Source of the DNA: Pohlia nutans
Lineage: Eukaryota > Streptophyta > Bryopsida > Bryales > Mniaceae
Reading direction: 5' to 3'
DNA length: 64,000 nt
NCBI GenBank assembly: GCA_022496805.1
Contig: CM040097.1
Location: 18,652,072 to 18,716,071 of the forward strand
Below are positions 1 to 55,416 of this stretch, one piece after another; position 1 is the stretch's first letter, and each line of letters starts with the position of its first letter. The translations under genes and the position numbers were made by a program. The notes under the pieces were generated by a model, which searched no databases, was not told where the DNA came from, and worked only from the letters and a program-made list of their open reading frames with translations.

Positions 1-1256
1 GCTATGTCTCTGTTAAAATCTCCACATAATATGTATGTGTGGTTTGGATGTGCTATGATTTGTTGTGTTATTTGTTGTTGTATTATTGTAATATATTGAA
101 TATCTTCTAAGTGGGAGGGCATGTACATGTGTAGAATTAGCCAAGGTTGTAAAGGTGCATTTTTTATTTGTATAATTTGTAAGTATGGCAAGATTTCAGC
201 TGGGGTAGGTAGTATGGTGATATTTCCTGGGTATGCATATTTGTTATTTATTAGAGTGAGGAGTCCGCCTCTTGCAGGGGTATACGGCATTCTTTGATGC
301 ATGCATCTTGTTAATGCGTGTGTGTTGTTGAAGATTAATTTGTATTTTGGGAATAGGTTTTGTATATATTTTGTTGATTTTGTTGCGGTTAGTTTGGTTT
401 CTTGTATTGTGATAATCGCTGGGTTTGTTGTGGTGTTTGAGATTAAGTTTTGTAGGCTTAGTAGGGCTGTGTTTAAAGATGAGGCATTCCATGTAATGAT
501 GTGTGTGTTGTGGTTCGTTGTTTGTGACTCTTGGGTTTGCGGTAATGGTATATTAGATAGTGGGGGAGGGTGTGAATATTCATTTATAGGTTCATTGCAT
601 TTGAGAGATTCTATTAGTAAATTTTCGGGTAGGTATGGAAATTTGTTTGTTAGTATTTGCAGGTTTGGTGGATTATTGTTTTGTTTGATAAAATCATATA
701 GTTGTTTATGAATGGTATTAGGGGGGTTAATTAGGTTTTGGTTGGTGTTTTTAAATTCTGTGTATGGGTGTGGGTTTAAGATGTGCCGTTCGGGGAGGTT
801 TTGAAGAAGTGCCATTTTCTCAAGGAGTATTGTTGTCCAGTCTGGATCAGGTGTTTGTATTAATTGATGGTCACATGTTTCTAGTAGTGGACTTATCGTG
901 GTAATGAGTGCGTATAACATGCGAGGAGGTGGGTGGTGTTGGTTTTCGTTTATATATTTTGAGAGGTGTGGGTAATCTGTAGATGTTTCTGGGTGGTTTG
1001 GGTGTGTTGTTTTTAAACAAGGGGCAAACTTTTGTGCTAAATGTTGATATTCTGGATGTAGTTTTATTGTGCATGGTATAAAATATGTTTTGCTCTTATT
1101 TTTATGTGATGGTGGGTACGTTTTAAGTATGTTTGGCATTGGACCTGGGTTGGTTTCGATGTCACCGCAAAGGAGAAGTAGAAGTTTTGAGAAATGGTTA
1201 TTTTTATAGTTTGATATGGTGATAATTTCGTTTCTGTTAGGAAGGTGTTGTTGCCT
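1..1256 (-). mobile_element. LINE (non-LTR retrotransposon) ORF with 2A-like motif and AP endonuclease, 3' part outside window
   Basis: Read on the minus strand, the frame from 1256 to base 1 has no stop: 39 codons, then 379 codons from the ATG at 1139, running off the window. Codons 25-39 read LLLLLCGDIETNPGP (1184-1140), a perfect 2A ribosome-skipping motif (D-x-E-x-N-P-G-P) after a Leu run. After about 210 uncharacterised residues comes an exonuclease-endonuclease-phosphatase (LINE EN) domain: THIITWNASSLN, then AIITIQETKL (catalytic Glu), PARGGLLTL, and at the edge ILCGDFNRDI. Known: EN nicks target DNA for target-primed reverse transcription, and 2A motifs occur near the start of some LINE proteins. 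The reverse transcriptase should lie to the left of the window. The coding strand is A/C-rich, as in many LINEs. There is no in-frame ATG between the upstream TGA (1257-1259) and the 2A motif, so the true start is unclear. The long open frame suggests a young copy. Confidence 0.88.
1140..1184 (-). other. 2A-like ribosome-skipping peptide motif
   Basis: The frame reads five Leu, Cys, then GDIETNPGP, directly followed by Met-Pro-Asn. In known 2A peptides the ribosome fails to join Gly to the last Pro, releasing the upstream peptide and continuing from Pro. Here the released piece would be a short hydrophobic leader. The motif match is exact; activity is inferred. Confidence 0.85.
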
Positions 1257-3379: not shown

Positions 3380-4610
3380 CATCAGCTGTTAAATTTAACA
3401 TATTTAGTCCTAGGAACTCAAATTTCTCATAAATTTCTCTAATTCAAATGACAAACTCTACTTTAGGGTCCCTAGAGATTAGGGGAACCAAATTTCATGT
3501 TGGGTGTCAATAATTTCTCTTTAAAGCTGCTAAATATAGCATAATATACCATACATGATTAATTTGATATAAATTTCTGCAATTCTAAAGAAAAAACAAC
3601 ACATTAGGTCCCTAAAGGTTGGGGGCATCCAAATTTCATATTTGGTTCCGATATTTATAGTCAAAGCTGCTAAATTTAGTAGATTTTGCCATATATGCTC
3701 AAATTTGATGTAGATTTTTGCATTTCGAAAGACAAACATCATGTTAGGGCCCCCAGAGGTTAGGGGCATCCAAATTTGATGTTGGGTTCTGAGATTCATA
3801 GTCAATAGTTGCTTAATTTAGCATATTTTGTCTTACATGCTCAAATTTGATGTAGATTTCCACAATTCGAAAGACAAACACCACGTTAGGACCCGAAAGG
3901 TTAGGGGCACCCAAATTTGATGTTGAGTTTTAAGACTTATAGACAAAAGCAACTAAATTTGGTTGATTTTGTCATACGTGTTCAAATTTGATGTAGATTT
4001 CCGCATTGGAAAGACAAACATCATGTTGGGGCCTTTAGAGGTCAGGGGCAGCCAAATTTGATGTTGGTTCCGAGATTTATAGTCAAAAATGCTAAATGTA
4101 GTAGATTTTGCCATACATGTTCAAATTTGATATAGATTTCCGCATTTTGAAAGACAAACACTATGTTAGGGCCCCTAGAGGTTAGGGGCACCCAAATGTA
4201 ATGTTGGGTTCCGAGATTTGTAGTCAAAACTAAATTTAGCATATTTTGCTATACATGCTCAAATTCGTTGTAGATTTTCCGAATTCGAAAGACAAACTCC
4301 ATATTAGGGTCTCTAGAGGTTACGAGCATCCAAATTTGATATTGTGTTCTAAGATTTATAGACAAAAGCTGCTATGTTTAGTAGATTTTTCCATACATGT
4401 TCAAATTTGATGTAGATTTTCGCATTTCGAAAGACAAATACCATGTTAGGGCCCTTAGAAGTTAGGTTCACCCAAATTTCATATTGGGTTCCAAAGTTTA
4501 TAATTAAAAGCAACTAAATTTAGCATATTTTGCAATGCACACACGAATTTGCTGCGGATTTATGTGATTTGAAAGCAATACAGAACATTACAGTCTCTAG
4601 GGAGTACTGG
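3380..4610. repeat. Tandem array, about nine ~140-bp units
   Basis: The anchor word GAAAGACAAAC recurs near 3727, 3867, 4007, 4146, 4285 and 4426 (spacing 139-141), with more diverged units near 3441, 3585 and 4570. Each unit holds GTTAGGGCCCCTAGAGGTTA-like text, ATCCAAATTTGATGTTGGG-like text, then TTTGCCATACATGCTCAAA-like text. Frames through it are inconsistent and carry stops, so it is satellite-like rather than coding. Confidence 0.9.
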
Positions 4611-14387: not shown

Positions 14388-14549
14388 TTATTGCTAATAG
14401 TGGGGGTGGGTTTATAGTAAGGTAGGTTTTATTGCTAATAGTGGGGTTGGGTTTATAGTAAGGTAGGTTTTATTGCTAATTGTGGGGGTGGGTTTATAGT
14501 AAGGTAGGTTTTATTGCTAATTGTGGGGGTGGGTTTATAGTAAGGTAAT
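14388..14549. repeat. Minisatellite, 41-bp unit, four copies
   Basis: Four nearly identical head-to-tail 41-bp units contain TTATTGCTAATAGTGGGGGT and GGGTTTATAGTAAGGTAGG. Variants are limited to A/T and G/T changes in the first half; the last unit loses its final bases. High identity suggests recent expansion. Confidence 0.95.
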
Positions 14550-25155: not shown

Positions 25156-26889
25156 TTAGTCCCAGTATTTGATGAGACCGTCCCAGCCACAGGTGGCCAC
25201 TTTCGACTGCTCCAGAGGATGCCATTCAGCTCCTATACAGACACCTTCATGACACTTGAGAGTGCGGAACACTTTACATGTTTTCCAGTCCCAGAACCAG
25301 CATCGACCTTCACCATCGCCTGACATGATGAACCGCCCATCTGGTGAAAAGTTCACTTGACATGCATACCCAGCAACAATATGCCCTGCAAATCGCTTCT
25401 TCTTGTTCAGCCTGAACCGCTCCCGGGTACTGTAAATTAAAATCTGGTTATCTAAGCTTTGCGCTGCAAACCAGTTGGTGTTCGGGTGGACAGTGATCGA
25501 GGGCATGGAATGCATATGCGGCTCACTAATGTACTTAATGACCACAGGAATCCCAAACTCCCACACACGCAACGACTTATCATCACTGGATGTTACAAAC
25601 CTCCGATTGTCATCGACAAAAGTAATAGTATTCACAGCGCCCAAATGCTGATCATATTCTTGACTAATCTCCCCAGTGTTCATATCCCACTGCACAATCT
25701 TCTTATCACTCATCCCCGCCAGCAACACGTTCTGCTTATCTTCATCCGGATTGAATTTCACCACATACGGAATCTTCCCCGTGCTAAACGCGGAAATCAC
25801 TTGTCCAGTCTCTGTATCCCAAAGCTTAATTTTCCTATCGTACGAAGCTGTCAAAAACTTCGACCCGTCGTTGTTGAAAGTAATGTCGCGAACTGCTTTC
25901 GAATGACCCATGTACGTTCGCATACACTTGCCAGTGCCGTGAACATCCCATATTTTGACCTTGGTATCCATGCTGGCCGAGAGAAGCAGATGACCATACT
26001 TAGGAAAAAACCGAATAGCAGAAACACCTTTAGTATGCCCACTCCATGTGTGCACCCATCGCTTCGGAATGTAGCAATGCTCATTGGTAGCCTTATGATC
26101 CTTTGGAGGACTAATCCATGACCGACCTTGGTAATCCGTTTCCTCTTTCCCATGAAACGTACTCTTATCATCAACCTCAATCTTCTCTCCTTTCTCCTTT
26201 TGACTCTTCTTCTCTGCATGAAGCTCAGCGTAAGCAGTTTGCTCCTCGGTAAGCTCGCCCTGTAGCCCTTCCTTCTCACCAGCCCACGGCGACTTGGAGT
26301 TTTTCAAAAGCCATTCCTCAGTCGCAGGATTCAACACCTTCTCTTTCTCCTCGTCGTCACCTTCCTCGCCCCGGGGCCTCTTTTTACGCTGTTTCCGATG
26401 CTCGTGCTGTGGCAGGTTGTACACGGATGCGCCATCGGTGGCTTCTAGGGTTTTGAGGTCGCCGACGATGTTGTTGGCGCCAGGGTCCGCCGCGAACCCG
26501 TAGGTGTAAAACGTGTTGTACTGCTCGTCGAACATGAAGGGGGCGATGGCGGCGTCCTCCACGAAGCCGATTTTGTGGTTGCGGAGGCCCTGCGCCACGC
26601 CGTCCTTCGCGTACGGGTGCGCGGGACCTGCCACGGGCGCCCACAGCTGCTCAGCCGTGGGATTGTAATTCACTTTGCGCTGTGACGGGTCCAACGGTTT
26701 CCGCATTGCTGATCCCGGAGTATTCACCACAAGCATCGAATCGCTCACCTCTGGAGCAGCGGACCGCCGAGGCTCCAGGAGCCGTATCGGGGAAGAATCG
26801 GGAGACGACGACAAGGCGCCCGAAGCCGTGCGCGTGGCGATGTTTGGATCCCCCTCCCCGCCATCGCTGTACTGCGCCAGAAGATCCAT
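25156..26889 (-). CDS. PRP17: Pre-mRNA-processing factor 17 (PRP17/CDC40), intronless, 577 aa
   Basis: PRP17 is a WD40 splicing factor that acts in the second catalytic step of the spliceosome. The start [14 protein letters not shown] at 26889 matches family practice; there is no upstream in-frame ATG. The N-terminal half has the family block [20 protein letters not shown], then YTYGFAADP, a Lys/Arg-rich segment ([10 protein letters not shown]) and the Glu-rich linker ending [16 protein letters not shown]. Seven WD40 repeats fill about residues 282-577, with [64 protein letters not shown] and the terminal [13 protein letters not shown]. Length equals the usual family size. It is higher in GC than its surroundings and has no intron, unlike the other genes here. 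Confidence 0.97.
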
Positions 26890-32173: not shown

Positions 32174-33607
32174 TCAACCAAATGCCATTTTAGAGAATGT
32201 CCAGTTTAAAATCGCTTCAACTCCATATACTAATTGGAATGGGGTTGCACTTGTGGTTACCTTGTAAGCAGTTCGATATGCCCACAATGCTGCAAAAAGT
32301 TTATCATCCCAATCTGTTCCTTTCCCAGAAATTGTCTTCGTTAAGATTTTACATAGTATTCCATTTGTCTTCTCCGGTTGTCCATTTGCCTTAGGATGGT
32401 AAGGTGTAGTCTTTCTATGTTTGATTTCATATTTTTCTGTCATAGACTGTATTATTTTATTTATAAAGTGTGTGCCTGTGTCAATTACCAATTCTTTTGG
32501 ACATCCGAATCTTGTAATAATATTTTCATAAAGGAATTTTACTACAGTCTGTGCATCATCCTTCCTTACTGCTGCTGCTTCAGCCCACTTAGTAACATAT
32601 TCTGTTGCTACCAAAATAGAACACTTTTGTCCTAATTTAGACTGAGGAGCAATAGGCCCAACAAAATCAATTCCCCATTTCTCAAAAGGAATTTGTGCTA
32701 TAATTGGAATTAATGGCACTGATGCTGAATCAGTTGGTCTTCTAATCCTCTGACAAGGATCACATTGTCGAGTATATTGGTGTGCATCCTTGAACAATGT
32801 GGGCCACCAATAACCTGCAGTTAAAGTTTTGAGAGCGATACTATCAACTGCAAAATGTCCTCCACAACTGTTCATATGACAGCATTCAAGTATAGATAGT
32901 ACTTTACTTTGAAATATACATCTACGAAATATACCATCTTTTCCCTTTTTATATAATACTGATCCAATCAAAGTAAATGGAGCACTTCTCCTGATAAAAG
33001 ATCTCTTTCATTCCTCCATATAAGTTAATGGAATTGTATTAGTACTTAGATATTGAATAATATTTTTATAATCTTCAGTAATAATATCAACTTCAAATAA
33101 TTGTGCATCTGGTAATGCATCTGGTACTGGTTCTTTCCCAAGATCATTACCTAAGCGAGATAAATGAACTGCGTTTCCATGTTTCTTGCCGGGACGGACT
33201 TTAATTGTAAATTTAAACTCTTGCAATAATAAAATCCATCTGGCGATTCTTCCACTAAGTTGCGGTTTATTGATCAAATATTTGAGAGCATCATGGTCTA
33301 CATGAAAAACAAACTCATAGCCAAGAAGATAATGTCGATATTTTTGAATTGAATAAATCATTCCTAGAGCTTCTCTTTCCGTTACTGAATAATTTCGTTC
33401 TGCTGCAACCAATTGTCTGCTTGCATAATAAATTGGATGATCAAATCCTTCGGTATCATTTTGGCTTAGAACTGCGCCTAACGCAACATTAGATGCATCA
33501 ACATAAACATAAAATAACTTTGCCCAATCTGGCGTAATTAAAATTGGTGCAGTTACTAGTTTGTGCTTGAGTGTTTCAAAAGCTTCCGTGCATTCGGGTA
33601 AACCATC
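32174..33607 (-). pseudogene. Truncated Ty3/gypsy pol: RT tail, RNase H, integrase
   Basis: One minus-strand frame of about 478 codons is interrupted only by TGA at 33008-33010. It opens inside the RT/RNase H joint (LPECTEAFETLKHKLVTAPI) and has RNase H motifs YVDAS, VTEREAL and HVDHDAL. The integrase follows with zinc-finger residues (H..CGGH, CDPCQR) and core acids in GIDFVGP, VIDTGTHF and NGQPEKTNG. It ends soon after TPFQLVYGVEAI. Gag, protease, most RT and the LTRs are missing on this strand. The left break is at 32174 and the right break at about 33607, where unrelated plus-strand sequence begins. It is a truncated, dead copy. Confidence 0.92.
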
Positions 33608-33615
33608 TAGGAGGC

Positions 33616-35685
33616 TAGGAAGGGGGCTGTCACCGATTAGGGTTTTCCCAGTTTCTCTAAACTCGTGTGCAGCGTAGCGACAAAGTTGTTTTCAAGCTTA
33701 GGGTTTCAAGTGTTTGTTGCTGATTCTTTGTGTATGTGTGCGAGTTTAGTTTTTAGTTGCTAGAATGGGTGTTAAGCGTGTTGTTTCGAAGAAGAGGCCG
33801 CGGAAGCCACGCCCTAAAGTTGTTTATCCGGCGTTAGGAGAGTATTATTTGTATCCGTTAGAGCCAATCACCTTAAATGTTTGTTGGACGCGTGCGACCC
33901 AGCCAGAGTTCAGGAATGCGCAAATGTATACCTTCATTTGGAACTCGATGAAGTTTCCAGGGTTTGAGGAGCCGCTCGTGAAGGAGTTTCTTTGTAATTA
34001 CGACACTAACGACAATATCAGTATAGTGCAAGGGCGGACAATTGCGATTGATGAGCAATTGGTGTCTGACGCTCTTTCTTTGCCGATGAGTGAGCAGACG
34101 GTTGATCCCTCAGCAGAGTCAGGAGATTTTGTGGTTGCGTCTTATTTCAAGACTGGAGCTGAGGCGCACGACAAGAAGCAGGGTTGGAAGACTGTAGAGG
34201 CGATCACACCCGAGTTGTTGGAGTGGTTGCGATTTGTGCAGCGGAGGTTGTTGTACCTATCAATTCAAACGATGAATGGCATGGTTTTCAATTGGGCACA
34301 TTACGTGGCAACGCGCATCCATTACGAGGTGGACAAGAAGCTGCAGAAGGGTACTTTTCCGGTATTATTGTGTGTTTCCTACCTCTCAATTATTGTGCGA
34401 TATGTTTTGAACAATCCAGCTGTTGTGGAGAAGAGGACGAAGTTATTACGAACTAATCTGTCAGCAGACCTAGTAACGCCGGCGCCGAAAATTCACAGTC
34501 TTTTATCCGAAGAGGAGGATGTGCCGATTACTCCGAAACCATCACCAGGAGAGGCGCAAACACCACTGGAGCATGGCGATCAAAACCTAAGCCCACACCC
34601 AAACCACAGCTGCGTAGCTCACGAAAACCGTCCTCAGATTTTTCTCGACCAAATGATGCAGAGGCCGGTCCAAGTAACCTAACCGTAGTTCCGGGACCGG
34701 TGAAGGCGAAGTTACATGCAGGTCTTAATCAGCTGATAAAGTACGTGGACGAGCTCGCAGATGAAGAAAACCTAAAGGTGCAGTTGGCTGCGGAGCGTGC
34801 TGTCAATGTCAGGTAGAAGGACGAAGTCCAGCACCAGAAGGAGATTATACGGTTGCAGCAGGCCAAAGTCCAAGAAGTGATGGCGAAATTCGACGAGCTG
34901 CAGCTTGCAAGTACTCAAGATGCTGTCACCATCGGGGAGTTGAGGAAGGATGTGGAGTTCTACCGGGCAGCAGAATTGACTTGGAAAGAGGTGCAAGCTA
35001 CATTGCAGCTGGAGTTGACAAAGTATAAGGGTGCTGTAGCTAATCTGGAACAGCGCACCACTACCCTTTCTGCGGAGTTGGATCGCACTCACACACGTGT
35101 TGCCAAACTAGAGACAGTGCAGGAGCAGGTGGCCGCATTGGATGAAGCCCAAAAGCGCATATTTTAGTTGGAGGCTGTTCAAAATCGTGAAATGGAGTTG
35201 GCGGCTCAAGTCACGAAGTTGGAAGTACAATTGCAGCAGAAGTTTGTCAAACGCTCCTCTCCAGAGCAGATTGCTGGAGCGCTACCTTCAGCCGCTCAGC
35301 CTACGGTGGAGTTGAAGGAGTTGCAGGCAGAATTGGACATGAAAAATGCGCGGATTGATCAATTGGAAGCCCAATTGCGAACATTTGGTATGCGCAATGA
35401 GGAATTACGTGAACAATTGGAGGGCACAGATCAGTCTGAGGAAGAGGACGATGAGGAGGAGGAAGTAGATGAGGCAGAACCTATGGATACAGATGTTCGT
35501 GTTGACGTTCTTCCAAGTGAAGCACCTATTCTTCTTAATGTGGAGGATGTAGTCTCGAGTTAGTTGCAGATGGAGACTAATTTTTGCAATGTATATAAAT
35601 TTTGTGTATAAAGCTGTTCCAAATTTTCCATGTTATTATCATCTTTCTATGGTTTGCGTGGACGCTGCACATTAGGAAGGGGGCT
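33616..35685 (+). mobile_element. Transposon-derived block bracketed by a 13-bp purine-rich repeat
   Basis: TAGGAAGGGGGCT occurs at 33616-33628 and again at 35673-35685. Purine-rich words like this serve as polypurine tracts next to 3' LTRs. Between them lies the broken coiled-coil ORF. If 35673-35685 is a PPT, an LTR starting TGTAAACTGAGG at 35687 would follow. Confidence 0.5.
33765..35563 (+). pseudogene. Broken transposon-type ORF with coiled coil and acidic tail
   Basis: It starts with a basic leader (MGVKRVVSKKRPRKPRPK). A globular part follows with the pattern LVKEFLCNYDTNDNISIVQG, then RTIAIDEQLVSDALSLP, which resembles the 'putative plant transposon protein' family found with plant LTR elements. 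A shift near 34600 moves the frame; after it come TAG stops at 34814 and 35165. The second half is a long heptad-rich coiled coil (34700-35420) and an acidic end (EEEDDEEEEVDEAEP). There is no protease or polymerase. The reading order suggests a gag-like or accessory protein of an LTR element that is now dead. Confidence 0.7.
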
Positions 35686-42374: not shown

Positions 42375-43014
42375 TTGTTGTCAACTTGCACAGCTTTTCA
42401 GGGTTTTGATACAAAATTGGACTGAAAAGCCCTGTGAAAGTTGATGTCCTGTCAATTGTTCAGGATCCTCAACCTCCTCTAGAGTTCCCACACTATCACT
42501 AATTGTGGCACACATTCGAGAGCCGGGACCTCAGATGGTAAGATCGAAGAGGTTTGAGTGTAACATTGTTGTCACTTTGCACGGCTTTTCAGGGTTTTGA
42601 TACAAAAATCGGTGCCAATTTTACTGAAAAGCCCTACAGTCAAGCTTCATGTCCTGTCAATTGTTCAGGATCCTCTGTATTTCCCACACTATCATTGATT
42701 GTAGCTCATATTCAAGAGCTGGGACCTCAGATGGTAAGATCGAAGAGGTTTGAGTGTAACATTGTTGTCACTTTGCAAGGGTTTTCAGGGTTTTGATACA
42801 AAAATTGGTGCCAATTTTTCAGTGAAAGTTGATGTCCTGTCAATTGTTTAGGATCCTCAACCTTCTCTAGAGTTTCCATACTATCATTGGTTGTAGCACA
42901 CATTCAAACTGGGACCTCAAGATGGTAAGATCAAAGAGTTTCGATCTTCGCAAGGGTTTTGATACAAAAATTGGTGTCTAATTTTACTGAAAACCTCTGA
43001 TGTTGTGACAACAG
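42375..43014 (+). repeat. Tandem repeat in PANK leader, ~190-196 bp units, 3.3 copies, each with splice sites
   Basis: Units start at 42375, 42565 and 42761, with a partial unit from about 42950. Each full unit has an acceptor-like TTTTCAG (AG at 42401-42402, 42591-42592, 42787-42788) and a strong donor-like ATG|GTAAGA (42538, 42734, 42925). The last, partial unit runs into the real acceptor (AG 43013-43014) of the first PANK coding exon. Confidence 0.85.
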
Positions 43015-43025
43015 GATCGGTGAGC

Positions 43026-46000
43026 ATGACATCATGGAAGGCGCAAGCACCTGCAGCGTTGGAGGTTCCCAGCATCGGAGACTCCGTGCTGTCGCCCGTG
43101 GATTCCAGTTTTCTGGAAGGCGCGTCGTCGCTGGCCCGGTTCGGCCTGGACATCGGCGGCACGCTGTGCAAAGTGGTGTTCTTCGAGCCGGACGAAGCGC
43201 ACGCCGGCAAAAGCAGGCTGTCTCGCACAAGCTTTGAAGACGAGGAGGATGCGTCGTGTTCGAATGGCCACCAGGAAACGGAGGAGGATTCTTCAATGTG
43301 CAAGCGAACTCGGCTCACCCCTCGCAACGTCTTCCACAAGGGCGCCATGACGGCTCGCCAAGCTCGCAAGATGTGGATCTCCAGTCACGACCCTGTCCAC
43401 ATTCCTGGACGAGGCACACTGTATTTCAAGTGCTTTGGTGTGTCCCAGATTCCACCATTGTCTTTTGTTTCTCCTGCATTTCTTGCTAGAAACGAAATGA
43501 AACTTGTGCTTGCACAAATCGTTCAAATCAGCTCCTTATAATGTGATCATTGATGGCTTTACTCTTTTTGTATTTGTTGTCCATGCTTGTTTCTTCGTTC
43601 TTAGAGTTATTCTTGAAGTCGTTCAAAGCGGGGGTGCTGTTCAAAGTAGGGCGAGTCTCATCGGTAAGTAGGATGTTCCATTGAGTAAGTTTCCTGCTGT
43701 GGCTGTTTCAGAAACTTGGAAGATAGAGGAGTTTCTAGCCCTCACCAAGGAACATTCTTTGGTTAAAAAAGGGCGAGCTCTTGGTGCCACTGGGTACGTT
43801 CTAGTGATTTACTGTTCTAACACTTAACCCTTAAAGGACCAAGGATTCATAGTTTTAAAATGACAAATTCAATTGATTAAATCAATCATATTGTGAAAAA
43901 TATAATTCAGATTTTATATCACTGGAATCAGTGAAGAACATTGCATGTGTTGATCAAAAGACAAATAAGTTTGAATAAAGGAAGTCTACATAAGTTCTAT
44001 AATAAACATGAGGCCCAATTTGGGCTTCTTGGTCCTTTAAGGGTTTATGAGGTCGGACAGCTTTTGATTGGATCTGATAACTCAAGTGAGATTGAAGATA
44101 TAGATGCCAAATAGGTTCAGGATTTCTTTTTTGTTACTTCTGTTCCTCGTTACTCAGGTTTTGATGTGGAGGCTCACATAACAAAACCTCACTTGTTTTG
44201 AATGACCAAGTCTGTGTATACTGCCTGTGATTGTGACTGGACAGGGGCGGTGCACGGAAATTCAAAGATCGCTTTCTTCAAATAGCTGGTCTCCAACTGG
44301 AGCGTGCCGATGAGCTCCACTCGTAAGTCTCAGTACTAAATGCTTAGCTCAACAACCTGATAATTACCATTTTTAGTGTCATTAGTAGCGTTGGGTTTGC
44401 ACCATTTCCACTGTAGCACTAGTTACAAAGACATCACTAAGTCAATGTGAGAAATTAGCAATGTCAACAGTCAAGCTTGTGCAACTTTAGAATCATGTGG
44501 CAGATTTGATGACTCATGACTTATGAGTTGGGAATTTTGCTTTCAAATGTTGAACTGAACATATTAGTGGAAGTATGTGAAAGAAAGTACATGTCAATGG
44601 ATCACTGAATCTTACATATGGGCCAATGGTGTGAGGACCTGGTTTCAAGAATGTTATGCTTGTCGTGTACAGTATGACCATTTTTTATTTTATTCTTTTT
44701 TCTTGTTTTGTTATATTTTCTTTTCTTTTTGTTTATGACAATAAGTAACCAGTAGGTTTGTGAAGTCTGGTGCGAGGTATTGATTTTCTGGCGAGGCACG
44801 CGCATCACGAGAGCTTTGAATACCCTTTGGGCTCATTTCAAGGAGGCGCTATACAAAGACCGCTGAAGGAGATGTGTAGTGAAGAAGAAGACAGGTCTGC
44901 AAATAATGCGCAGGCCCATTCAGAGTCAGATGAAGTTCCGAATGGAGCGCAAGGCCCAGGTCTTGCCTCTTCAGCTAATGGTCGGCTCGGGGCAACTGAA
45001 GCTCTATATCCATATCTCGTGGTATGTGCTCTGCATTATGAAACCCTAAACCCTAAACCCTCAAGGTTTCTTGCGTTAGAAATGCTTTTGTAACTGTCTG
45101 TCATGTGCCAGCATGTTGTGTTCTAAGTTCCTTTGCTTCAAGATTAGCATAATAAACACATTCTCTTGAATAACTGAATAAGGGTCAAGACAAGACTACA
45201 GTGGTATTACTCTTTTTTGTGACCATGCTCTCTTCTTGCTAACTTTAGCTTTATGTTTGTCAACTCTCATGTTTACTTGCCAAAGCTCAGAGGTTTATTT
45301 GGGTTGAACGCAGGTGAATATTGGCTCAGGTGTGAGCATATTACGAGTTGATAGTGCGGAAAATTTCGAGCGTGTCGGAGGAACCAGTCTCGGGGGAAGG
45401 TCTGGCCTCTGAAATTGTGTGATTTGCTTTGAATTGGCATTTGTTACTAATGAGCATTGTGTTCTGAAAATGCTTTTGTGAATTTCGTTAGTCATGCAGA
45501 ACAGAGTCTGTGTTTGGGAAAAACGGTGTTGTAACATAGAGAATGCTATAGAACTGATTGCAAATTTATGAAATATTTCTCTTTTATAAATTGTAACAGT
45601 GTTTTTGCTACCTTTAATGTTGTGTGATTCTGCTTCTGATATGACTCCTTGTCTCTCACAGCACGTTTCTTGGATTGGCCTCGGCTCTTACTGGTTGCAC
45701 AACGTAAGCTTTCGGCCTCTTGTGCAATGATGCAAATTTTGAATGGTCTTGATCTACATTGATTATGAGACCATTTTCATAGCAAAACTGAACAGGATCT
45801 GATGTGGAGTTTTAATTTCCCATCTTTGAAAGTGCTTTGATATGTTTTTATTTTTATTTTTTTGCGTAACAGAGGTGGTTGATAATTGTGCAGTTTCGAG
45901 GAGGCAATCAATTTTGCGACGGAGGGAGACTCCACCCAGATTGATATGCTGGTTGGAGACATCTATGGTAATTCATAGATAATTTTTTATAGTTTATAAT

Positions 46001-50309: not shown

Positions 50310-53300
50310 ATGGTCTATCCAGACAGCACGATGGCGAGATGTGAGCCGAGCTTGGATAAGGAGAATGTAGGCCCCCGAGCTCATAGGTCTGAACAGGCTG
50401 GATCAGGTCGAACCGTCTTGAAGCAGATTTCATCGCTGCAAAATCAGGTATTGTTCATTGTGGTGATTTAGTTTGAAGTATTCGCTTGCCAGTTTCCGAA
50501 CACAATGTGGCTCCGTTCTCCATAAGGACTGTTGACCCCTAGGCGTCCACTGTGTATTTTCTGTAGTGTAGGAAAATTGGACCCCCTGCTGCAAATCATC
50601 CGTTTGTGTGAAAATGACTTCAGTTTGACACGATCGACACTGTTGATCTTGTAGTAGAACAAGATCTTTAAAATAATGTTTTGCAATCAGAAAACCGAGG
50701 TAAAATGAGAAAATGCCACCGTTGCAAAGTTCAGTGATGCAGATGGCCATATTGGACGTTTTAAACGCTTAGGGGTTAACATGATAGGCAGCAGTGTAGA
50801 ATATCTGCGGGAAAAAGCCACTAATTAGCATTTTGAGCGTACATCCCAAGGAGCGTGGAAGTAAAATATTGGAAACTGAGAATGGCGATCCCAACTTAGC
50901 CTTACTCGTCTAGACTTGCAGTTATTGACGAGTCTTCTGCCTGATTTCAGACTCCTGCAGTGGTGACCTCTACCAAGACGAATCTGGGATCCACCGAGAA
51001 GGAATGGCTGAAGAATGCCTTATCCGATTATTCTAGTGGGAAGCAATCTGCTGGGTCGCTTGAACGCCTGAAGGAAAAGATTGGGCAGCTGAAAAGTGTC
51101 GGTGCTCTGAAGCCTTTACCTTCCAAAACAGCTTCGACATTTGATTCTCATGCTGTCGGTGAATTACATTCTCGAGGCCTTTCATCGAATGTGTCTGAAG
51201 CCACCGTTCACATCTATAGGGATGAGGGGGTTTCAAAGTCAGGAGGTATTCAAAAGGAAACTTTGAAAGCAGAGAGTCAAAGACGTAACCGAGAGATTAA
51301 CTCCCGGAATGTTTCATTGCCTATTCACGAGCAGAATCCAGCTGAGCAGGATGTAGATGACCGTGGAAAACCGAACACTCTTTTGACGCCAATACAGTCT
51401 TCGGCTGGAAAGGATTACGGGTCGTTGATGCAGAGCCATGGATCATCGTACTCCCGTGGAACTCCGTATAAGCAGAAACTTCCGGGTTCCGATTCTATTG
51501 AGAGCTCAAGTGAGTACTGAACTTTTACTTGTGTCCTGTTCAAGTCTCTTATTTTCAGACACTGTTTAGTCCTCAAGTAATGTTAGTTTCCAGGTATGTT
51601 TCTTTTCCGTTGCTTTTTGAATTCCGAGCGATGTTATGGTGAAGCTGGTTCATGTGATGTATATAATGAGGATGCTTTCATAAGATGTCCCAACCAAGGG
51701 AGGCATTCGCTGTCTTCAATTTTGTGCATTAAACTTTTAGGCAACTTTTTTTGGCAGGACGATCAGTTCAGAACAAAGTAGATAGAGGAGAGCATTTTAT
51801 TAGCGAGAAACAATCTGTCAGTAGCTCCCTAGTTGAAGCGAAGAGCGTTGTGGTTCAAGACCTTCAAGGAAAATACGAGACTTCACGGATTACCAGTCCT
51901 CAAGAGGAAGAAGCCAAGAGCAGTCGCGAGAGTTCTGTTGAGCGCCATGTACTACCGAGCAGCGCCCTTGTGGATAAGATCATCAAGCGTGCAAAAATCT
52001 CTAGTTTCGGTAAATTTATTTCTGTTCTTCTTCTTGGAACGACATATTCTGGATATTTTTCCAATGAGCACAATTTTTTGCTTGTACTTAGTTGAGGCTA
52101 CTGACTTGATTTCCTAATCACTGAATTTTCATGTTTCATGCATCATGGGCAGGTCCTGCACTGAGGGTCCGCAGAGATGACCCAAGGGCTTATTCCAAGG
52201 CTGATTGCAGTCCTGAATCTGAGAAATCAGCTGACGGCGACCAGACGAGTCCCGAGGCACTTTATGCATCGAAAATGACTGACAATCATGGAAATCTTCA
52301 TACAATGCCTAAGATATCAGAGGCCGGGACCTTCTCGTCCAGCAAGAGCAATCAGAGGGTTAACCAAAATGCGTCACTGCAGACAGATGATGATTTTTTA
52401 AGTGAGCACCGGAAACGAAAAGCTGAGACTGATCCTTCTACCACAGATACTTCTTTTCTTCTTACAGGAGTAGGCAACGATAGACAAATCTCTGTTGCTG
52501 TTGCCATGGAAGCCCACGAGGTTGGCAGTAAAGGAGGGAATCTAGTGCAACGGGAACGCGAAGGACGTCGGGGAAGTGTGGAAAGAGAGACTAGGACAGA
52601 GCCTACTGCTTTGGAGCAAAATGACGAGAGGTGGATTGAGGATGTCGCTGGTCACCCCCTTACAGGTTCCTGCACGAAAGGCACTCCAGGACATGAGAGG
52701 GAGCCTTGGGCGTGGAAAACAGCAAGAGACGCGCGTGCGTTGACTCTTCCATCACCGACATCGCATGAGCATTCAAAGTCTGGGAAAGTAGTTGGAGGCA
52801 TACCACCTCGTTATGTCCCCCCTGTAAGAGCCGTCTGAACCTAACTCTCAAGAGCACATAGACGAGAGAATTTTTTTTAATCTTGTGGTGATTCCTAGGA
52901 TAAGGTGGTTGACTTGTATATATCAGCTTACTTGGGTGGATACCATCATTCCTTGGTGGTTGTATTGTCATTGTTTTCATGTTTTCCAATTTATGCCAAT
53001 CATTGTGAGTTTCTCTCAGATTAAGAAAAACTCAGGACCCTTGGTCTTGGTCTTTAATTTTAACGTATTGTGATTGGGGAATCCTTTGGTGTTCCTCTTA
53101 GTGTTTCTTTGCTCACAATGAGCTCATGGATGTGTTGGGACAGATTTTAGAATCTCGAGAGCGAAAAGCAGAAGAAAATGGCTCACCTGCTTCGGATGGT
53201 CTCAAGCATCATTTTGGTGTTCCCAAGCAGATGAACGAAGTAGAGAAAAGTGAGCCAAATAATGGTGTCATTCCTCACTCAAATCTTCATGTGAAAGGCC

Positions 53301-55416
53301 TTGCCTGTGCTGCTGATGACAATGCTGTCAATCATCTCTCCAACACTTTTAGTACCATCAGTATCGAAGAGAAGGTTGCTTCTGGTTCAAACGGGGCTGA
53401 GAAAACGTCCACGCAGGGAAGAACCCAGGCTCATGTTTCTGGGCACCACGTGAATTTCGTCCCCGCTGAAAGTGGATCTAATACTGGAGTTACAGGTGTG
53501 ACTGGATTAACTGGGGTGACATCACCGAGTAATTTGATCCCGCATAAGACTGCTGTGACTTCGTCGCATGGGGTTGAGCTGCAACATAGATCTCATAGTC
53601 AGCAACCATTAAGAGAGGGGGATCGTGGATCTGACATGCCTGATCGTAATGCACTTCCGAAACCAACAGGTAGATCAACTGTAACTGCTGCTGAGGTTCC
53701 GCTACACGATGTTAATGAAGGGCAATCTGCTAAAGCTAGTGATTCATCTAAGGACAGAGGAGAAAAGAATCAAGAGCACAGCCATCACAACCCACAGCCA
53801 CCAAGAAAAATGCGGACAGAGGTTGAGAATGAGAAGTTTGTTTACGTCAATGGAATACGTTACCAGAAGTTGGGCAAAATTGGAAAGGGTGGCAGCAGTG
53901 AGGTTTTCAAGGTTATTGCGACTGACTGCTCTATATATGCTCTGAAACGTATTAACTTGAAAGGTCGGGACTGGACAACTGCACAAGAATTTTACCAAGA
54001 AATTAAGTACCTAAAAGCATTGCGTGGGAAACGTCATATTATTCAACTTATTGATTCTGAGGTATGTGATGATGTATTCTTACTAAGATGCGCATTTCAT
54101 TTCTTCATTCAGCTTTTGTTTTAACGAATCCTGGTGTATGTATCTGATGGATCTTGTGTGCCAATGCAATTACGCGTTAATCAAGAGTGGAGTTTACTGC
54201 TATAGGTCACAAACAAGAAGGTGTTGGAGAAAAAATCGGAGAGCGGAGATATTACGGAAGAATCCTGTATCTACATGATCCTGGAGTACGGGGAGATTGA
54301 TTTGGCTGGCATGCTTTCTTCAAAGCGCAAGGAAATGCAAAGCAACAATGAAACTGAGCTTGATGAGAATTGGCTTCGCTTCTACTGGCAGGTATTAATC
54401 TCTCATTTCGTTATATTGCGTCATCTGTCCACCCTTCCAAGGTTGATTAAAATGTTGCAACCTGCTCTTGAAACTTGAATTTGAATTCTTACATTTCCAG
54501 AGTTAATGTATGGCTTCATGGTGTATTTTGATAATCTGTCGCAAGGGTGTCTCGTGGGGAATAGAAATGATAATGCAGCTGGGTTCCAAAGTCATTTTGC
54601 CTCCCTGCTGGCTTGCTAATTTTCTTTGTTTCACTGGATGACAGCAAATACTGAAGGCCGTAAGGACTATCCATGACGAGCGTATTGTGCACTCTGATTT
54701 AAAACCAGCTAATTTTATGCTCGTGAGAGGAGAACTAAAGCTCATCGATTTTGGAATAGCAAGAGCTATTCAGAATGACACCACCAATATTGTAAAAGAA
54801 AATCAGGTATGTTACCAATGTCCAAGCTCGATCTTTAATTGCCTGCATACATACTGCTTGTTTTCAGATCGTCAATTCTATATTTCTGTACTTCATTTAA
54901 GAGGTTTAATATGATGGTCAGGTCATTTAGGATTCGCTAAGGTTCCTTGTCGCTCATCTCGCTTCTTGGTTTGCACAGACAGGCACATTGAACTACATGT
55001 CTCCAGAGACGTTTTTACAAAATCAAACAGATAAAGACGGTCTGGAAATCAAGATAGGGCGAGCATCAGATATTTGGTCCCTGGGGTGCATATTTTATCA
55101 GATGGTTTACGGGCAGACTCCATTTGCCGAGCTTTCGTTCTACTCCAAAATGCAAGCCATTACAAACCAGCACCACAAAATCCACTATCCTCGTGTCTCA
55201 AATCCCTGGTTACCAGATATGATAAAGAAGTGCTTAACGTGGGATCGTAGGAAGCGGCTGCGAATTCCAGAGCTTCTGGATCATCCTTTTTTACGGCCAC
55301 ACATAGCCCCCTATTGTTCTAGATGTGAACATCTTGTTACTCCAGATCCTCAACCGGCCTCCTATTGTCCCAGATGCGAGCATCAACGTCATTCCAAGGT
55401 TCCAGATGCTCTCTGA
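50310..55416 (+). CDS. MPS1: MPS1/TTK dual-specificity spindle checkpoint kinase, 8 exons, ~1114 aa
   Basis: MPS1 acts at kinetochores in the spindle assembly checkpoint and in chromosome segregation. Exons: 50310-50447, 50951-51509, 51758-52009, 52153-52823, 53123-54061, 54206-54391, 54645-54806, 54979-55416. They total 3345 nt, all in phase. The exon 5 acceptor (AG at 53121-53122) is the least certain. The kinase domain starts near residue 785: [16 protein letters not shown] (about 788-803), YALKRI (Lys about 814), [12 protein letters not shown] (Asp 934), [11 protein letters not shown] (Asp 950), [10 protein letters not shown] (Glu 979) and SDIWSLGCI. The HSDLKPANF and LNYMSPE forms are typical of MPS1. 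The first 780 residues are Ser/Lys/Glu-rich and low in similarity, with a GVTG repeat in exon 5. The tail has two CxxC pairs (see findings). The start is the first in-frame ATG after a TAG; 50331 is an alternative. Confidence 0.94.
50532..50779. mobile_element. TTAA-flanked MITE, 248 bp, in MPS1 intron 1
   Basis: The left end reads TTGACCCCTAGGCGTCC. The right end, inverted, reads TTAACCCCTAAGCGTTT. It shares TGAGAAAATGCCACCGTTG with the element at 20107-20690. It lies wholly within the intron. Confidence 0.75.
55310..55395 (+). repeat. Internal duplication in the last MPS1 exon
   Basis: Text coding for CCCCTATTGTTCTAGATGTG and for CCTCCTATTGTCCCAGATGC is a short duplicated segment. It gives the protein two copies of YCxRCEH, 17 residues apart. 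Confidence 0.8.

Follow-up and report, generated by a model that had tools for sequence, protein, structure and literature searches.

A conserved 2A (StopGo) motif in a LINE family with a copy most probably resident in a moss genome

Judging by sequence, a family of LINE retrotransposons carries a real, conserved 2A (StopGo) motif, and one of its copies most probably belongs to a moss; a known translational device, familiar above all from animal viruses, would thus appear in a new host lineage. Positions 3-1256 of the window (the whole analysed stretch of DNA, 64 kb long) likely represent the 5′ part of a moss APE-type LINE copy, itself probably 5′-truncated, from a family in which the 2A is predicted to release a leader peptide. 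The minus-strand frame from 1256 to 3 contains no stop over 418 codons and exits the window at its left end, whereas shuffling these 1,254 bases 2,000 times by mononucleotide gave longest open runs with a median of 83 and a maximum of 226 codons. An earlier note on this DNA, made from the letters alone, had reported such an open frame of 418 codons with an exact 2A motif, and both observations were borne out: the frame begins with a short remnant and LLLLLCGDIETNPGP, continues with a helical domain of about 180 residues and ends within an endonuclease, of which the first 166 residues are present. The features of the copy are as follows.

3 to 1256, minus strand: reading frame of the LINE copy, open over 418 codons and reaching the left window end; supported by a Pfam match and 201 relatives.
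1250 to 1256, no strand assigned: inferred 5′ insertion junction, from a composition change point at 1253 that is uncertain by tens of bases.
1185 to 1256, minus strand: leader remnant ahead of the 2A, 24 residues without an in-frame ATG, GTG or TTG.
1140 to 1184, minus strand: 2A (StopGo) motif LLLLLCGDIETNPGP, with the core DIETNPGP at 1163-1140; supported by sequence and family conservation.
591 to 1124, minus strand: all-helical domain filling the interval between 2A and endonuclease, about residues 45-222, from an AlphaFold2 model.
3 to 500, minus strand: first approximately 166 residues of an APE-type (EEP fold) endonuclease, including its motifs QETKL (404-390) and CGDFN (26-12).

The core DIETNPGP satisfies the pattern (D/G/C/N)(V/I)ExNPGP, for which base composition predicts about 0.0001 matches per window, and the only NPGP in the six-frame translation of the 64 kb is that of the LINE 2A. 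The predicted break lies between G (1145-1143) and P (1142-1140) on the minus strand. By eye, the upstream context LLLLCG resembles the L-rich class of 2A sequences in the available text of PMC12846837, where L-rich upstream hexapeptides end in (A/S/C)G ahead of p12 = D. Both the fit of the core and the similarity of LLLLCG to motifs 2 and 6 link the window sequence to L-rich viral StopGo/2A, and viral motif 6 is listed among those assayed active (PMC12846837, in the part available). The difference is one of setting: the sequences described there sit in viruses, whereas the window 2A sits in a plant retrotransposon (PMC12846837).

How well is the motif kept within the family? Of 194 LINE relatives, 50 have a 2A-type motif and 45 have the full core; the NPGP of P0187, being located in the reverse transcriptase (RT), is not a 2A and was excluded from the 50. 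To describe conservation by column, we used an alignment (A4) of the window copy with 75 of the 194 relatives (71 from the first 120), picked for length and spread; these relatives share 35-85% identity with the window frame. Letters are present in all eight 2A columns in 45 of the 76 rows, window included. In these rows no variation is seen in D, N or the last P (45/45 each), and little in the other core columns (V/I 44/45, G 42/45, first P and E 41/45 each). A G stands just ahead of the core in 42/45 rows, and L occupies each of two upstream columns in 41/45. The expanded core (D/G/C/N)(V/I)ExNPGP is fitted by 33 of the 45 rows, and three more have H at p14 in place of E, a substitution with which another, natural 2A showed about 90% activity or more (PMC12846837, available text). 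Besides these H rows, the 12 rows off the core comprise nine with NPEP, NPDP, NPRP, NLGP (three times), NFGP, DSE or DIQ. Such departures are to be expected in decaying copies, but also under weak selection; skipping by such variants is, to our knowledge, unreported. Averaged across the 14 columns that make up the 2A, the majority frequency is 0.79, compared to 0.49 in the 12 columns just upstream, 0.61 between 2A and endonuclease and 0.77 in the endonuclease. Since the endonuclease is conserved as well as the 2A, the latter does not stand out above it. Most of the 31 rows without 2A letters (27) start past the motif, and in 11 of these the first residue is the Met after NPGP; the other four (P0032, P0037, P0041 and P0114) have some upstream letters but no aligned 2A. 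In a tree of 74 of the 76 rows (P0068 and P0073, shorter than 230 residues, were left out), the 2A is found on both sides of the midpoint split, with the window copy sister to P0024 (support 100/98). On this comparative evidence the 2A is a family trait and not a chance hit.

Some frames contain more than one such motif. P0188 and P0029 each have two H-type NPGP motifs, and a second, decayed motif is seen in P0054 and P0091. In P0188 the segment between the two 2A motifs resembles, by eye, the start of the helical domain, as if the 2A and the domain had been duplicated together.

The region ahead of the 2A is variable. Among the 50 relatives with a 2A-type motif, 40 have at least 46 called-frame residues ahead of the (last) NPGP. 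We aligned 40 relatives having at least 40 residues ahead of the motif, together with the window copy. Within one subfamily the leader can be aligned by eye over much of 100 residues and displays the motifs RPRH or RPRQ (11 proteins), NLFTTTKF and, before the 2A, GYYFINKL. Another set of seven has an RPTGLA-like motif in the leader; one of them, P0002, is grouped with the window copy in the tree. Across subfamilies, clear leader alignment is limited to the last 20 or so residues.

Longer relatives appear to encode, in one frame, a short leader, the 2A/StopGo, the helical domain, the APE endonuclease and the RT (as P0126 does as far as YIDF). The prediction is that the leader leaves the ribosome after NPG while synthesis resumes at the next P without a bond being formed; the leader and the helical-endonuclease-RT enzyme would then come from one mRNA as two separate proteins. 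The endonuclease would nick DNA and the RT would copy the element RNA at that site; target-primed reverse transcription is the general mechanism of LINEs.

Alternatively, the 2A-like peptide might have lost the ability to cause skipping, or never had it, with leaky scanning or reinitiation allowing the endonuclease-RT to start at the Met next to NPGP. This Met is indeed common: 32 of the 45 rows that have 2A letters carry it, as do 43 of the 56 rows with any letter at that position. Because 11 of the 76 A4 rows were called as frames beginning exactly there, internal initiation could replace skipping. The window copy, having no in-frame start upstream of its 2A, points the same way. On the other hand, all 45 rows agree in D, N and the final P, and the L-rich context persists as well. 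Moreover, at the Met position 13 of the 45 rows show a substitution (R, K, I or L); P0078, P0080, P0086, P0089, P0092 and P0113 are among them and have the full 2A core. These substitutions weaken the case for initiation at the Met, and we regard it as rather unlikely; leader release by StopGo is the reading that we prefer.

The assignment of the frame to LINEs relies both on its visible endonuclease and on its relatives. Pfam Exo_endo_phos matches residues 254-416 of the frame (E 1.3e-07), and a fold search agrees with an APE/EEP endonuclease. The earlier note had placed an intact-looking endonuclease about 210 codons past the 2A. The distance held, the domain starting about 214 codons and QETKL about 246 codons downstream, but intactness can be claimed for the visible part alone: the endonuclease is cut off by the window edge, and the SDH motif known from relatives falls outside the view. 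We found no further pieces of the LINE within the 64-kb window (tblastn, blastn). The domain preceding the endonuclease was modelled as all-helical, with pLDDT of at least 89 in 15 of 18 ten-residue blocks and of 70-74 in the remaining three. It has no match in Pfam, its sequence search returned a chance-level match alone (E 0.36), and its structure search gave no fold match, a result of little informative value since endonuclease matches filled the list. A profile of alignment A2 retrieved nothing from the PDB at E 0.01.

A search with the LINE frame yielded 201 relatives; the best 120, except for one piece filed under an archaeal bin, are drawn from ena or jgi records. Querying with the region from endonuclease to RT yielded 79 relatives, many having a precomputed RVT_1 domain. 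At E values up to 1, RVT_1 was detected in 29 of the 31 relatives aligned as A3; it was also detected in four of the 10 long relatives scanned. YIDF, QGDTLSP and YADDL are present in most of the seven relatives aligned as A5. The most complete view of the architecture is given by P0126, a single frame of 1007 residues with NPGP at 87, QETK at 340, GDFN at 467, SDH at 551 and YIDF at 1004. Neither P0126 (at E 0.01) nor P0129 has a Pfam match, and the parts of P0126 were named by alignment to relatives. Thus, the earlier identification of a LINE is supported by relatives that carry APE endonuclease or RVT_1 and by a frame that spans everything from leader to YIDF. Overall, the members of the family seem to be APE-type LINEs in which a single frame covers leader, 2A, helical domain, endonuclease and RT.

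When compared with solved structures, the A5 profile of the RT scored highest with three R2 chains (110-126 bits), followed by LINE-1 ORF2 chains (74-77 bits) and by two chains named reverse transcriptase-like (63-68 bits), a ranking to be read with the small number of LINE RTs in the PDB in mind. The two reverse transcriptase-like chains are presumably those of silkworm R2. RNase H families are absent from the Pfam table for A3, in which many rows end early. The last 155 residues of P0171 contain a Cys-rich motif followed by a weak chromodomain-like stretch. At the C terminus of relatives, Pfam Chromo attained an E value of 0.046 and 14.1 bits, short of its cut-off of 25.1, and the PDB gave no match, which amounts to only a hint of a chromodomain there. 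A structure model of the P0171 RT and C terminus had a mean pLDDT of 39 and was discarded.

Scans of other sequence collections contributed little. Profiles from three alignments matched 30, 113 and 51 stretches in viral contigs, zero of which were confirmed as relatives. In genome contigs, 202 of 564 matched stretches were confirmed and 80 kept; these are bacterial, with 23-42% identity over short pieces, and were set aside, as they would seem to be ordinary genes of the exonuclease III family. One LINE piece, P0051, is filed as a protein of Candidatus Nitrosocosmicus, an archaeal metagenome bin and the sole named organism in the best 120 of 201 relatives; it presumably represents contamination.

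The window copy itself is probably incomplete at its 5′ end. From the stop at 1257-1259 to the 2A, the frame has no ATG, GTG or TTG, and base composition changes at about 1253, close to the frame start. The sense strand of the LINE is composed of A 42%, C 29%, G 8% and T 21%, and the optimum for the change point is shallow, with an advantage of 4 to 5 log units over points 10 bases off. Because of the missing start and the change in composition, we consider the copy to be probably 5′-truncated near 1253. Such truncation is a common fate of LINE copies. Lacking an in-frame ATG, the copy as it is could not translate its 2A from an AUG of its own, and its 2A is probably a relic that records the design of the family. 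The suggestion of recent activity made in the earlier note therefore finds no support for this copy, given its apparent truncation and the lack of an in-frame ATG before the 2A; its 418 open codons suggest merely that it is not very old.

Evidence for the host comes from a single gene in the same window, about 24 kb from the LINE. This gene (25159-26889, minus strand) encodes Prp17, whose best named match is that of Physcomitrium patens at 86% identity, the next by score being Marchantia polymorpha at 77%, and one jgi protein reaches 91% (all among the best 120 of 2,598 matches). The best match among solved structures is 8xi2_W, an entry whose code occurs in a paper on the Chlamydomonas spliceosome (PMC11833078, in the part available). 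The identity of Prp17 upholds the earlier attribution to a plant genome, and on the strength of this one gene the window is most probably derived from a moss that is not Physcomitrium.

Could the LINE instead derive from some soil organism (a fungus, a protist or an animal) and have been joined to moss DNA by misassembly? It borders directly on the window end, G makes up 7.7% of its sense strand compared to 29.7% in the Prp17 gene, and its relatives stem from records without organism names. The position of the junction near 1253 is drawn from composition alone. However, an abrupt junction with the flank is just what is expected for a 5′-truncated LINE. The close relatives of the LINE and those of the window Prp17 also share the same kinds of source (jgi and ena), which is weak evidence. 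All in all, we consider misassembly improbable and residence in a moss genome the better explanation. The least credible alternative, a chance match in an ordinary moss L1 or RTE LINE, agrees with the report of these two superfamilies in plants (PMC9033089, available text) but is highly improbable as a whole, its chance component being excluded by the negligible number of expected matches and by family conservation, which leave membership in L1 or RTE aside.

Known 2A-bearing LINEs belong to the clades Rex1, Crack, L2, CR1 and Ingi. Odon et al. (2013) and Heras et al. (2006) reportedly described APE-type LINEs with 2A in animals and trypanosomes. Those elements likewise have the 2A in frame with proteins of a non-LTR retrotransposon; the family described here differs in its probable moss host, in the helical domain of about 180 residues without Pfam match after the 2A, and in the leader present in many relatives. 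Another parallel is offered by sea-urchin NLR proteins, in which 2A signal sequences are likewise located near the N terminus, releasing a small N-terminal piece, although these belong to animal immune genes, unlike the moss LINE 2A (PMC4981915, in the part available).

For land plants, the available text of PMC9033089 gives L1 and RTE as the only LINEs. These have in common with the moss family an endonuclease, a reverse transcriptase and a land-plant genome, but, unlike in the moss family, no 2A is mentioned for them in that text (PMC9033089). In Physcomitrium, two potentially expressed LINEs are described, whose trees agree with plant phylogeny (PMC7466625, available text). As to plant viruses, the accessible portion of PMC12846837 reports no evidence of natural 2A use and almost no 2A motifs, with host misassignment suspected in the six cases noted. 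Engineered 2A peptides do function in plants (PMC12846837, PMC4981915, both as available). Within the open-licence literature on plant LINEs, 2A and neighbouring subjects, we found no plant LINE with a 2A.

A bolder interpretation, plausible but tentative, is that mosses, and perhaps other early land plants, harbor a lineage of LINEs, distinct from L1 and RTE, in which StopGo has served since its origin to release a small leader from the endonuclease-RT protein, sometimes with two 2A sites (as in P0188 and P0029). If true, land plants would have their first known natural 2A. A moss LINE family that has kept its 2A through deep divergence would bring land plants into the range of natural StopGo, would offer 2A peptides of plant origin, and would allow the reasons for the adoption of 2A by single-frame LINEs to be tested. 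Should an RT tree place the family outside L1 and RTE, plants would gain an additional LINE lineage.

The window has several other features. A tandem array (3463-4533) consisting of 7.6 copies of an approximately 141 bp unit, with 78% match, lies about 2 kb from the LINE, and a nearly perfect tandem repeat with a 41 bp unit (3.9 copies, 97% match) occupies 14388-14547. At 32174-33691 on the minus strand are remains of an LTR retrotransposon, which we take to be of the Ty3 type, with RT_RNaseH and RT_RNaseH_2 in one frame and an integrase zinc-binding domain and rve in the next. Just beside them is a run of open frames (33750-35563, plus strand), of which the first, 310 residues long, has no Pfam match and the following ones look coiled-coil-like by eye. 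An exon-like frame at 42963-43541 (plus strand) has a sub-threshold match to Fumble (pantothenate kinase; E 0.00043). Finally, a split protein-kinase gene, presumably of the MPS1/TTK type, is located at 53102-55416 on the plus strand, with its kinase domain recognizable.
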